From: Granulicatella elegans | GTDB lineage: Bacteria; Bacillota; Bacilli; Lactobacillales; Aerococcaceae | NCBI RefSeq assembly: GCF_020735385.1 | Contig: NZ_CP085953.1 | Coordinates: forward strand, 248,001-312,000 | Length of the DNA: 64,000 bases | Direction of reading: 5' to 3' | In this document: positions 3,360-61,065 of the stretch, piece after piece | Layout of the letters: each line of letters opens with the position of its first letter | Position numbering within the stretch: the stretch's first letter is position 1 | The notes under the pieces: model-generated | Seen by the model: only the letters and a program-made list of their open reading frames with translations | The model's database searches: none | What the model was told of the DNA's origin: nothing | Translations under genes and position numbers: made by a program

Positions 3360-3881
3360 TCACGATAATTTTTTTAATATCTTCACATGATTTAATGCAT
3401 AATTTGCCGCAATCCCAATCGCAATACCTGCAAAAATTCCTACAATCGACATGGCTGGTAAATATAAAAGTACTGTCCAAGATTTTGCGATAAAACTCGC
3501 AATCACTAATTGCCCAAAATTATGTAAGATTCCTCCTGTCGCACTCACACCAATCAGACTCACACGTTTTGGACCTAATTGTTTAATCAGTAACATTCCT
3601 AACAAACTAAACGTAGCACCAGCACTACTGTACAATAAAGTAGAGAAAGTCCCCCCTAACAAAGCTGCTAATAATGTTCTGAGTAACACTACTAATACCA
3701 CTTCTTGTAAGGACAATGTATATAAACCGATGACCGTAATGATATTCGCAACTCCTAATTTAGCTCCTGGTGCAAACGCAAAAGGAAAAGGAATCGCTTG
3801 TTCTAGCAAACTCAAAATAATTCCTTGAGCTGTTAATAACGAAATAAATAACATTTTTTTCAACGTTAAATTTTGTTTCAT
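3360..3881 (-). CDS. Gx transporter family membrane protein (EetB/heptaprenyl synthase component I-like)
   Basis: This 173-residue, very hydrophobic protein has about five predicted membrane segments and an early PFPFAFAPGAKLGVANI motif. That motif is typical of the Gx-transporter/'heptaprenyl diphosphate synthase component I' family (PF07456), whose members resemble small S-component-type carriers. In EET loci of Listeria and lactobacilli a member called EetB is needed for electron transfer; its biochemical role is not well defined. Start ATG 3881 has a strong SD (GAGGAGGT). The gene heads the ndh group but a promoter lies between it and ndh. No eetA-like (NusG domain II) partner is seen next to it. 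Confidence 0.75.
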   Translation of the reverse strand: MKQNLTLKKMLFISLLTAQGIILSLLEQAIPFPFAFAPGAKLGVANIITVIGLYTLSLQEVVLVVLLRTLLAALLGGTFSTLLYSSAGATFSLLGMLLIKQLGPKRVSLIGVSATGGILHNFGQLVIASFIAKSWTVLLYLPAMSIVGIFAGIAIGIAANYALNHVKILKKLS

Positions 3882-3969
3882 TTATCTACCTCCTCTCTTC
3901 AAACTCGTCTTATAATTGTACCATAACTCTCAAAAATCTTAAAAAGATATCTAAAACCGAACACGAAAA

Positions 3970-8171: not shown

Positions 8172-8295
8172 CTCCTTGTTTTTTTACAAAGAGACCCTGT
8201 TGCAGACAATAATTCATACAATCCCTACGCACGTATTAACGTAACAGGTTCTAAGAGTTTGTAAACACATCTCAGCCAACGGCACCTCTTTGTAT
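8172..8295 (-). promoter_or_regulatory. TPP (THI-box) riboswitch with SD-sequestering expression platform
   Basis: The minus strand carries the THI-box landmarks in order: GAGGTGCC, GGCTGAGA, TTACA, CTCTTAGAACCTG and GCGTAGGGA. The closing helix P1 is ATACAA (8290-8295) with TTGTAT (8216-8221). The expression platform is visible. CTCTTTGT (8186-8193) can pair with ACAAGGAG (8172-8179), which contains the thiT SD, or with ACAAAGAG (8286-8293), which overlaps P1. TPP binding should keep P1 and free CTCTTTGT to cover the SD (off). Without TPP the long-range helix forms and frees the SD (on). No terminator is seen, so control is predicted to be translational. Confidence 0.92.
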
Positions 8296-8316
8296 CTTTT
8301 TTTGAAATATGAATTT

Positions 8317-52139: not shown

Positions 52140-52256
52140 AGCGTGGCAACGTCCTACCCTCACAGGGGGAAACCCCCAACTACTATCGGCGCTAAGAAGC
52201 TTAACTTCTGTGTTCGAGATGGGAACAGGTGTATCCTTCTTGCCATCGTCACCACA
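52140..52256 (-). rRNA. rrf: 5S ribosomal RNA
   Basis: The minus strand begins TGTGGTGACGATGGCAAGAA, contains CCCATCTCGAACACAGAAG and ends GGACGTTGCCACGC, a standard Firmicutes 5S of about 116 nt. The ends are estimated from the terminal helix. Confidence 0.96.
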
Positions 52257-52330
52257 CTTCTCTCTTGAAAAAGCTCTCGCTCTCTCAAAACTGAATCTAT
52301 ATCCAATTCCTTCCTCATTTACCTTCAACC

Positions 52331-56998
<4,668 letters not shown>

Positions 56999-57167
56999 AA
57001 TACATTCATGAGCTTTTGAAAGCTCATTTTAATTACTGACTTATTGTTTTTCTCCTTAGAGAAAAGAAATTGTTGTTTCTTCATTTTTGTGAAGTCCCTA
57101 CACATTTGGTTTGTCTTCTTTGTTTAGTTTTCAAAGGTCAACGTCGCTTTATCGCGACAACTCCTAT

Positions 57168-58063: not shown

Positions 58064-58100
58064 AAAAAGAGGCAAGCAATCCTCTCGCTTGCCTCTTTTT
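58064..58100. terminator. Bidirectional terminator between rsuA-like and flavin reductase genes
   Basis: A 14-bp stem (AAAAAGAGGCAAGC / GCTTGCCTCTTTTT) has T-runs on both strands, serving two convergent genes. Confidence 0.85.
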
Positions 58101-58105
58101 TAAAA

Positions 58106-59341
58106 TTAGTTACTTGCACTTGAAGTTGCGTCTGCTGAACCATGACTTGGAGTATCAGATGAAGCACCTGAAGTTGCATCCGCGCTTCCGTGAGAACCAT
58201 GTCCTGCTACAGCTGGAGCATTTCCTCCAACTAAACGTTGACCAGTTGTTTCTAAATACCAATCTAACCATGGTTGGAAGTTAAAGATAATTTCGTTAAT
58301 TCCTGCATATGAACCATCTGGATAGTACATTGCTTTATAGTTATGAGTATTAATAACTCCTTCTGGTTGTCCTGGAACAATTGTACGAACGTACTCTTGA
58401 TCACCATTACGTAATACGCCTACAACCCACTCAACGTTTTTCATTCTTGCTGGTGGTAATGAAGCGTGCACAGTTCCTAATCTGCTACCCGCTTGGACAC
58501 GTACACGTTTACCAAACATTGTGCTTGGTTCTTGGTGAGCGTTATTATAATACAAGAATTGGTTGTTATCATCTGCATATGTTAACTCAAATGGCATTGC
58601 TTTTAAGAACATATCAATTTGGTTAACTGTTAAGATACCGTGGTCTAATTTTACATAAGTATCTCCTGAAACAGCGCCAACGATTTCTGCTGCTTTTTCT
58701 ACCCAATCTGGATCATCTGGGTCAACGCCTTGAATCGTTGTTGCAATTGGATTTGTACAATATAAATCTTCTGGAGCAATTGGTTTTGGTTTTTTCAATT
58801 TAGAAACTACCTCCACATATTTTACAAAGTTATCTAAACAAGATTCTAAGAATTTCACTGTTCCTTCATTTGTGATATTCCCGTTATTATCAAATGCTTC
58901 TTTAGCTTTTCCTAATAAAAATTCATTTCCTGGTAATGTATAAGCATTTACACCTGGAGCATCTAAAATTTTACGTAAATGTACTTGCGCACGTGATGTT
59001 CCTTGATCGTGATAGGAAGCACCTACAATCATAACTGGTTTGTTTTCAAATGGGTGTACTTTATAAGATAACCATTCTAAAACGCTTTTTAGTGATGCTG
59101 TAATTGTATGATTGTGTTCTGGTGTTGCAATAATAACACCGTCAGCACGTGTAATTTTGTTATATAAATAACGTAATTGGAAACTGTCATCCCATTTTTC
59201 ATCTTGATTAAATACTGGAACTTCATCGATTTCCAAAACTTCTAATTCAAATTTTAATTTAAATTCACGTTGAATGAATTGTAATAATTTACGGTTATAA
59301 GATAGTTCAGCATTTGAACCTACAATCCCTACAAATTTCAT
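58106..59341 (-). CDS. NADPH-dependent FMN reductase fused to a PAS-like domain, with tandem flavinylation-motif tail
   Basis: This 411-residue protein has three parts. Residues 1-185 are a flavodoxin-like FMN_red domain (GIVGSNAELSYNRKLL, IIATPEHNHTITASLK). Residues about 225-375 resemble the PAS_10/DUF438 sensor domain (LDHGILTVNQIDMFLKAMP, FLYYNNAHQEPSTMFGKRV). Residues 380-411 are a His/Gly/Ser/Ala tail with a 16-residue repeat GSADATS. It contains DATSGAS (388-394) and DATSSAS (404-410), which resemble the sites where ApbE links FMN to Ser/Thr. An apbE gene starts the operon. The ATG at 59341 (SD GAGAGG) is used; the longer frame overlaps the upstream gene. The reductase part is probable; covalent FMN on the tail is a prediction. 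Confidence 0.88.
   Translation of the reverse strand: MKFVGIVGSNAELSYNRKLLQFIQREFKLKFELEVLEIDEVPVFNQDEKWDDSFQLRYLYNKITRADGVIIATPEHNHTITASLKSVLEWLSYKVHPFENKPVMIVGASYHDQGTSRAQVHLRKILDAPGVNAYTLPGNEFLLGKAKEAFDNNGNITNEGTVKFLESCLDNFVKYVEVVSKLKKPKPIAPEDLYCTNPIATTIQGVDPDDPDWVEKAAEIVGAVSGDTYVKLDHGILTVNQIDMFLKAMPFELTYADDNNQFLYYNNAHQEPSTMFGKRVRVQAGSRLGTVHASLPPARMKNVEWVVGVLRNGDQEYVRTIVPGQPEGVINTHNYKAMYYPDGSYAGINEIIFNFQPWLDWYLETTGQRLVGGNAPAVAGHGSHGSADATSGASSDTPSHGSADATSSASN
58109..58204 (-). repeat. Tandem 16-codon repeat encoding the flavinylation-motif tail
   Basis: The last 32 codons hold two copies of a 16-residue unit beginning GSADATS. Both keep Asp, Ser, Ala and the terminal Ser of the presumed ApbE motif (DATSGAS and DATSSAS). 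Confidence 0.8.
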
Positions 59342-59367
59342 AATGTCTTTTCCTCTCTTATTGTGGT

Positions 59368-59976
59368 TTAAATATTTTCCCAATCAAAGTTTTCTGCTTC
59401 TTTGTGTAATAAATCTTGAGCACTTCTTAATTTTTGAGTAATTTTCACAAATAAACGGAAATCATCAAATAATGCATCTAATTTTTTGATTGTATCTAAA
59501 TCGATTAAATCACCTTTTTTATCAAATGCTTGAAGTGAGTGAGATAATAAGAACTCAGATCCTGGCATAACATTTGCTTTTAATTCTGGAGAGTCCAAAA
59601 TTTGGCGTAATTGTAATTGAGCACGAGATGAACCTAATGTTCCATAAGATGCTCCTGTAATCATTACAGGTTTATTTAATAATGGATGAATGCCATATGA
59701 TAACCATGCTAAAGCGCTCATTAATACAGCTGGAATAGCGTGGTCATATTCTGGAGTACCAATAATTACTCCTTCAGATGCTTCAATTTTAGCAGCAATT
59801 TCTGTTACAAGTTCTGGAACTTGTTTGTTTGCTGGTTTGTTGAATAATGGAATATCTTTAATTTCCACTAATTCAATTTCAACTTTATCTGCAAAATGTT
59901 TTTGCATATATTGTAATAAAGTACGGTTTGTAGAACGTTGTGAGTTTGTTCCTACAAGTGCAATAAATTTTGTCAT
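59368..59976 (-). CDS. NADPH-dependent FMN reductase family protein
   Basis: This 202-residue flavodoxin-fold protein (LVGTNSQRSTNRTLLQYMQ, VIIGTPEYDHAIPAVL, PVMITGASYGTLGSSRAQ) is similar in sequence to the N-terminal domain of the next gene, so the two are probably ancient duplicates. It lacks the PAS-like domain and the tail. It probably binds FMN and NAD(P)H; the electron acceptor is unknown. It lies between apbE (26 bp) and the fusion gene (26 bp). The two reductases may form a heteromer. Confidence 0.88.
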   Translation of the reverse strand: MTKFIALVGTNSQRSTNRTLLQYMQKHFADKVEIELVEIKDIPLFNKPANKQVPELVTEIAAKIEASEGVIIGTPEYDHAIPAVLMSALAWLSYGIHPLLNKPVMITGASYGTLGSSRAQLQLRQILDSPELKANVMPGSEFLLSHSLQAFDKKGDLIDLDTIKKLDALFDDFRLFVKITQKLRSAQDLLHKEAENFDWENI

Positions 59977-60002
59977 AATAATTCCTTTCTATACATCTCT
60001 GA

Positions 60003-60947
60003 TTAAACGAATTGAATTCCAGATGTATACATCATTTTTTGATTTTTTGTAATCACAAATGCTTCCAGTCCAGGTTGTTGTTCAATTTCTTCGATAATGT
60101 CGTATGGATTTTTTCCAAATAAACGCGTCGTCCATATTTCGCAATCTACTGATTTTTCAGCCACAATCGTAATACTTGCTACCTCTGTTTCCATTGGATA
60201 CCCGCTGGTTCTATCAAATATGTGATGATAGGTTTTTCCATCTATCACTAATTGACGTTCATAAATCCCTGAAGTTACAACAGATGCATCAGATACAGCT
60301 ATCACTGCAACATGTTCTCCTCTATCCAACAATGGATTTTGGATACCAATTCTCCATGGTCTTTGATAGGTTGGATTTTCTCCAATCGTAAGAATATTGC
60401 CCCCTAAATCAATGATTCCTGATTGAACACCTTGTTCTACCAAAAATTCTTTTAACTTGTCAGCAATATATCCTTTCGCTAAAGCTCCTAAATCGATTCG
60501 CATTCCAATTTTTGATAAATAAACTTCCTGTTTCGAGTCTTCTAAGACAATTTCCTCTGGATTCGTTATTGGTAATAAAGTTTGAATCTCTTCTTTTGAA
60601 GGGAGTTTAGCATCCGAAAAACCAATTCTCCATGTTTGAACTAAAGGTCCAATCGCAATATTAAGATAACTATTCGTAGCAATACTATGTTTCTTTCCTA
60701 ACGCAATTAATTCAAACAATTCCGGATGAACTCGAACTGACTTCTTTCCGGCTTGTAAATTAATCGCCATTAGTTCTGAATCAGCATCATTCGCACTGAA
60801 ACGATTTTTATAAAGATGCAACAGTTGTTCACTCTGTAACAATAAACTTTGCGCATCCTCATGGAATATCGTTAATGTAATAGAGGCCCCCATTAATCGA
60901 AGACTGTGACTAGCACTTTGCAAGCAATTTCCTCTTTCCTTTTGCAT
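60003..60947 (-). CDS. apbE: ApbE family FAD:protein FMN transferase, cytoplasmic type
   Basis: This 314-residue enzyme hydrolyses FAD and attaches FMN to a Ser/Thr of a target protein through a phosphoester. Family motifs include LRLMGASITLTIF near the start, RFSANDADSELMAIN, IDLGALAKGYIADKL, IDLGGNILTIG and the Mg-site SDASVVTSGIYER with HHIFDRTSGYP. There is no signal peptide or lipobox, so it should act in the cytoplasm, unlike the exported FmnB of EET loci. An in-frame TTG at codon 9 with AGAGG is an alternative start. The best local target is the tail of the fusion protein two genes downstream. Confidence 0.93.
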   Translation of the reverse strand: MQKERGNCLQSASHSLRLMGASITLTIFHEDAQSLLLQSEQLLHLYKNRFSANDADSELMAINLQAGKKSVRVHPELFELIALGKKHSIATNSYLNIAIGPLVQTWRIGFSDAKLPSKEEIQTLLPITNPEEIVLEDSKQEVYLSKIGMRIDLGALAKGYIADKLKEFLVEQGVQSGIIDLGGNILTIGENPTYQRPWRIGIQNPLLDRGEHVAVIAVSDASVVTSGIYERQLVIDGKTYHHIFDRTSGYPMETEVASITIVAEKSVDCEIWTTRLFGKNPYDIIEEIEQQPGLEAFVITKNQKMMYTSGIQFV

Positions 60948-61065
60948 TTGCCTCTAATATACCAAACCGTTTGAGTTTTCACAAGTATTTTAGCTCATTT
61001 TATCACATTGCTTTTATATAAAATAAGTACACATTTTCTCAACTGTTCCTGTAACTAAAAAGAAA

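Follow-up and report, generated by a model that had tools for sequence, protein, structure and literature searches.

An apbE-linked FMN reductase–PAS fusion with a putatively flavinylated tail in Granulicatella elegans, and related motif carriers in Lactobacillales

On the minus strand of a 64,000-nucleotide stretch of Granulicatella elegans DNA (the window), three genes are transcribed in the order apbE (60003–60947), FR1 (59368–59976) and FR2 (58106–59341). Read from its ATG, apbE encodes a cytosolic-type FAD:protein FMN transferase of 314 residues (PF02424, E 1.6e-75); a TTG at 60923, preceded by a Shine-Dalgarno-like stretch (GGAAAGAGGAAA), is a possible alternative start. The ApbE domain begins at residue 19, so a signal peptide would not fit, there is no lipobox, and an N-terminal hydrophobic segment is absent both here and in the ApbE proteins of linked homologues. 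FR1 is a FRedA-like FMN_red subunit (PF03358, E 1.5e-34). FR2 has 411 residues when read from its ATG, which we prefer because initiation at the TTG at 59383 would create an overlap with the preceding gene. It joins a FRedB-like FMN_red domain (58901–59341, residues 1–147; PF03358, E 2.3e-34) to a PAS_10 domain (58277–58618, residues 242–355; PF13596, E 9.2e-20), a region similar in sequence to chain A of PDB 2qkp as well (E 1e-8), and to a low-complexity C-terminal tail (58109–58225, residues 373–411). The initial annotation had described an apbE without a signal peptide, an FMN_red gene and an FMN_red/PAS-like fusion; the open reading frames and Pfam matches agree, and the PAS-like part proves to be a solid PAS_10 match. 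An AlphaFold2 model of FR2, built from 47 alignment rows of close homologues, had a mean pLDDT of 44.6 and did not resolve the PAS domain and tail. A promoter-like site with an extended −10 element (TTGTGA-17-TATATT, 60956–60984, minus strand), identified by consensus match only, lies just 5′ of apbE; a terminator-like hairpin is predicted 3′ of FR2 (58067–58086, minus strand), and another ends the gene upstream of apbE (61107–61066). Because of these flanking signals, the three genes probably form a self-contained unit.

Elsewhere in the window are an rRNA operon (16S, 23S, 5S; 52141–56999, minus strand), past a pseudouridine synthase gene, and a TPP riboswitch (8205–8299). A second ApbE of this genome, encoded to the left of window position 1 (L001), is a lipoprotein and itself contains VVSSAS close to the N-terminus; next to it are encoded a small lipoprotein and a membrane protein, the latter maybe a prenyltransferase, and this second locus probably serves extracytosolic electron transfer.

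The FR2 tail contains two putative flavinylation motifs, DATSGAS (58160–58180, minus strand; residues 388–394) and DATSSAS (58112–58132, minus strand; residues 404–410), with Ser394 and Ser410 as putative acceptors, each invariant in the 47-row alignment. As first annotated, they sit in a 16-residue tandem repeat, and the residue numbering given then was exact. The repeated units, HGSADATSGAS and HGSADATSSAS, lie 16 residues apart and agree at 10 of 11 residues, and their DNA is identical at just 21 of 33 positions (12 bases differ). This level of DNA divergence with a single residue change rules out a recent duplication and argues that the repeat is held by selection. For the window tail alone, shuffling at equal composition yields two or more motifs with a probability of 1.2e-4. 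Across 109 distinct homologous tails we observed 239 motifs where 1.4 were expected from shuffled tails of equal composition, which excludes the motif as a chance product of low complexity. At least two motifs occur in 106 of these tails: two in 77, three in 23 and four in 6. Among the three tails with one motif, two have a second, slightly altered copy that falls outside the search pattern, and L078 has one clear motif. The consensus is D-A-[TV]-S-[GS]-A-S, with Ser in the acceptor position in 242 of 250 copies; the linkers between motifs vary from 2 to 25 residues, whereas the motifs themselves are kept. A sister genome whose FR2 is 99% identical (L085) has DATSNAS where the window has DATSSAS. 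The second motif may thus be weakening in this lineage, and we regard the Ser410 motif as less certain than the first.

The initial annotation considered a doubled flavin tail unusual, a view that did not survive comparison. In a sample of 395 Lactobacillales genomes, FR2 finds matches in 228 (cut-off E 1e-20), and the full-length form, defined as a match to residue 390 or beyond, is present among the matches listed in at least 150 genomes, that is, at least 150 of the 353 that carry apbE; proteins of this kind were, moreover, described in 2024. That annotation also proposed checking whether such tails co-occur with apbE, and named conserved tails in apbE-free genomes as contrary evidence. We sought such cases in the 42 genomes without apbE by comparing both lists genome by genome: among the matches listed, none of the 42 has the PAS-plus-tail form, and four retain FMN_red genes or a fragment with the tail absent. 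FR1 lies directly upstream in 155 of 172 full-length loci. In 155 of the 172, apbE is encoded on the same strand no more than 1.5 kb upstream, and six more have it elsewhere in the locus. For the remaining 11 loci, ten genomes have apbE elsewhere (L071 was left out of this check).

Because shared ancestry inflates such counts, repeated losses are better evidence. In the tree, the tail-less FR2 proteins of G044, of G130/G188/G244 and of G202 nest within the tailed clade, suggesting that tail and PAS domain were lost repeatedly. In G044, G130, G188 and G244, tail, PAS domain and cytosolic apbE appear to have been lost together; in G244 the N-terminus of the sole ApbE is signal-like. The exception is G202, which keeps a cytosolic-type apbE elsewhere in the genome and yet has a tail-less FR2. 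In a phylum-wide sample of 398 genomes, the PAS part was found in two genomes only, both Lactobacillales, with no wider spread at that sensitivity. The operon is also plasmid-borne: in Lactococcus lactis it is accompanied by a gene for a Crp/Fnr-type regulator, and in Enterococcus faecium it is flanked by IS1216 copies (L114/L115, L117). FR2 shares 94% identity with Streptococcus-type homologues versus 71% with those of other genomes of its own genus, the corresponding values for apbE being 58% and 52%; this contrast could reflect intergenus transfer or replacement of part of the operon. Literature searches on the Streptococcus counterparts, including S. pneumoniae loci assigned tentatively by synteny, returned nothing on their function.

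There is direct precedent for such tails. Huang et al. (2024, mSystems; PMC11334425) showed that apbE-linked FMN_red proteins of Lactococcus lactis and L. taiwanensis carry FMN covalently at motifs in their C-termini, and that Ala mutants lose it. Like FR2, those Firmicutes proteins combine a PF03358 head with a C-terminal extension bearing one to two motifs (two in FR2) and a linked apbE (in the same operon here); compared by description, they differ in that the main text names no PAS domain and discusses no FR1 partner. Conservation of the motifs, their co-occurrence with apbE and this flavinylation with Ala-mutant controls together make it very likely that the linked ApbE attaches FMN covalently to the FR2 tail. 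The original suggestion of one or two covalent FMN groups therefore stands well for Ser394 and less surely for the second site.

FR1 and FR2 appear to be two distinct subunits of the FRedA/FRedB kind, a point beyond the initial annotation. In a tree of FMN_red domains they fall into two clades, and nearly every operon, including that of the window with its adjacent paralogues, supplies one member to each; a few deep forks are modestly supported, and for some Lactobacillaceae rows the BLAST-based name disagrees with the clade. The Lactobacillus-like pair of L280/L281 likewise has one member in each clade. FR1 has Thr in the phosphate loop and Asp after a conserved Glu, as in FRedA, and the FR2 head has Ser9, Ser14, Phe44 and Glu75, as in FRedB, so that the types at residues 9 and 75 agree with the tree. 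In Lactobacillus johnsonii, FRedA and FRedB are the partners of an obligate heterodimer, which binds FMN non-covalently at two sites and needs no tail for activity; it oxidises NADH, reduces FMN (Km 20 uM) or FAD and forms H2O2 (Valladares et al. 2015, PMC4500961; for lj0548/lj0549 that paper refers to Hertzberger et al. 2014). The heterodimer, its NADH oxidase activity and its H2O2 formation have been demonstrated for L. johnsonii only.

The L. johnsonii system also includes a PAS protein, LjPAS, which would be of the kind seen here, as its two FMN_red subunits are; PAS is a separate protein in L. johnsonii and is fused to FR2 in the window. Homologues of LjPAS fused to FMN reductases, such as EF1227 and Lp2732, were already noted in other species (PMC4500961). 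In our sample, separate PAS_10 proteins of the LjPAS kind (L221, L222, L224, L256–L272) have 216–292 residues, and almost all of them carry one to three flavinylation motifs at the C-terminus, as in DATTGAT...DTATGAS...DTSSGAS; two copies (L256, L268) have frameshift-like tails. Where checked, their genomes have a cytosolic-type apbE, which in G009 and G236 lies close to the FMN_red pair, and Lactobacillus-like genomes of this architecture combine two to three motifs on the PAS protein with a cytosolic apbE near the pair. The PAS region of the window is 38–47% identical to the separate PAS-tail proteins of Lactobacillus-like genomes. By architecture and size (246 residues here, 28 kDa in PMC4500961), the PAS-plus-tail unit, which also exists as a separate protein, would correspond to the LjPAS type. 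Valladares et al. contains no occurrence of flavinylation or ApbE, and our literature search found no paper joining LjPAS with either.

Around the same head, the motif is thus found at the C-terminus of FR2 and on separate PAS proteins, and also at the end of FR1-clade subunits, in FMN_bind domains, in multi-PAS FR2 proteins and on PAS-less tails. It ends the FR1-clade subunit in L217 and L226; these were considered as PAS-less forms and rejected, since Pfam finds PAS_10 in both. PAS-less tails are instead those of L218 and L219 (the latter judged by its length of 294 residues) and of a Lactococcus type (L297–L312), in which a single FMN_red protein with one to four DADTGAS-like motifs in a C-terminal extension, some of them degenerate (DADTGST), directly precedes apbE, with neither FR1 nor PAS. 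The proteins of Huang et al. (WP_021723379.1, WP_205872264.1) may be of this type; their L. lactis protein was not found on the plasmid records searched. At the other extreme, FR2 proteins with up to three PAS_10 domains carry motifs between and after them, in loci that keep the apbE-FR1-FR2 order: seven to nine motifs in proteins of 882–901 residues (L209 5296–7998, L210 5000–7645, L211 5610–8282) and six in a 717-residue relative (L212 5278–7428). Judged by sequence, these are possible soluble multi-flavin relays. In L179, a 176-residue FMN_bind protein (3384–3911) with DATTSAT and DAVSSAT and no obvious signal peptide lies beside an FR1/FR2-PAS pair with a single tail motif, and is perhaps a flavin carrier in trans.

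Two further systems offer parallels. The hydroxycinnamate reductase HcrA/HcrB of Lactiplantibacillus plantarum likewise pairs an FMN_red partner with a large subunit headed by FMN_red, and passes electrons from NADH through enzyme flavin to an acceptor (PMC10295242). HcrB-type proteins of 809 residues in our sample (L215 3985–6411, L216 5243–7666), beside an FR1-type gene, differ from FR2 in carrying FMN_bind, with one D-x-I-S-G-A-S, and FAD_binding_2 in place of PAS_10 and the tail; Pfam finds no FAD_binding_2 in FR2. The soluble fumarate reductase of Klebsiella pneumoniae also combines a cytosolic ApbE with a soluble target, but of another family and with Thr rather than Ser as acceptor (PMC12052999).

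From gene content, motif conservation, co-occurrence with apbE and the subunit clades, we infer flavinylation of the FR2 tail, electron flow through it, a final acceptor and a role for the PAS domain. FR1 and FR2 would form a soluble NADH-oxidising FMN reductase with FMN bound non-covalently in two pockets, like FRedA and FRedB. The cytosolic ApbE would attach FMN to Ser394, and probably also to Ser410, and these tail flavins would replace the free FMN or FAD otherwise reduced by FRedA/B. Electrons would then pass from NADH to the pocket FMN, to the tethered FMN and on to a final acceptor, either O2 to give H2O2 (the default, taken from L. johnsonii) or another partner, with PAS_10 positioning the tail and/or binding a partner or signal. 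Because FRedA/B uses free FMN as a substrate, we propose that tethering makes the enzyme independent of free flavin, with additional motifs providing additional tethered acceptors. This model accounts both for motifs outnumbering pockets and for the occurrence of the motif on either subunit or in trans. We assign the whole reading a probability of roughly 0.6, and the acceptor role of the tail flavin, taken by itself, seems probable. Retention of a cytosolic-type apbE with a tail-less FR2 in G202 speaks against it.

An alternative is that the covalent FMN is the active-site flavin itself, with the tail folding back to fix FMN in the FMN_red pockets and prevent cofactor loss, and two motifs serving two pockets. 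Huang et al. place the tail of the L. lactis protein close to the flavin pocket in their model and read its covalent FMN as secured there (PMC11334425), which counts against a tethered acceptor, and two is the commonest motif number (77 of 109 tails). However, three or four motifs in 29 of the 109 tails, and six to nine in the multi-PAS proteins, exceed two pockets; separate PAS proteins carry the motif too; and FRedA/B functions with non-covalent FMN and no tail. We consider an active-site anchor unlikely, at something under one chance in four. Still less probable is that PAS and tail act chiefly as a regulator, whose flavin senses oxygen or redox state and which slows assembly or activity of the heterodimer in response. 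LjPAS did slow the heterodimer in vitro, pre-incubation with FRedB lowering the initial rate, a result that also weighs against the acceptor role; and the LjPAS gene is repressed without oxygen. The LjPAS assayed was, however, produced in E. coli without co-expressed apbE (PMC4500961) and was therefore presumably flavin-free; in addition, PAS-less tails occur (L218, L219, L297–L312), and a sensor does not need up to nine flavin sites. That the motifs stay unflavinylated in G. elegans and the tail is only a linker is very improbable, given motif conservation, apbE linkage and the Lactococcus experiments (PMC11334425).

Flavinylated FMN_red tails, PAS–FMN reductase fusions and cytosolic ApbE were each already known. 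The connection between the literatures on FMN_red flavinylation and on FRedA/B-LjPAS was absent from the papers searched, as were the multi-PAS forms. More broadly, and tentatively, at a little below even odds, Lactobacillales as a whole may possess a family of soluble NADH dehydrogenase heads (FR1/FR2) that are wired through FMNs which ApbE attaches to interchangeable carriers: a simple tail, a fused or separate PAS with tail, an FMN_bind–FAD reductase, or multi-PAS relays with six to nine motifs. LjPAS-type ‘regulators’ would then be flavoprotein electron acceptors studied only in flavin-free form, and cytosolic ApbE would control H2O2 output or another reduction. Such a scheme would join ApbE flavinylation of FMN_red tails to the FRedA/B-LjPAS peroxide enzyme of lactobacilli. 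If it is correct, the LjPAS results would need to be revisited with flavin attached, and apbE would be an easy target for altering the H2O2 output or redox balance of lactic acid bacteria by genetic means. The multi-PAS proteins, in turn, would be candidates for soluble multi-flavin relays inside the cell, whereas most described ApbE targets lie outside it.
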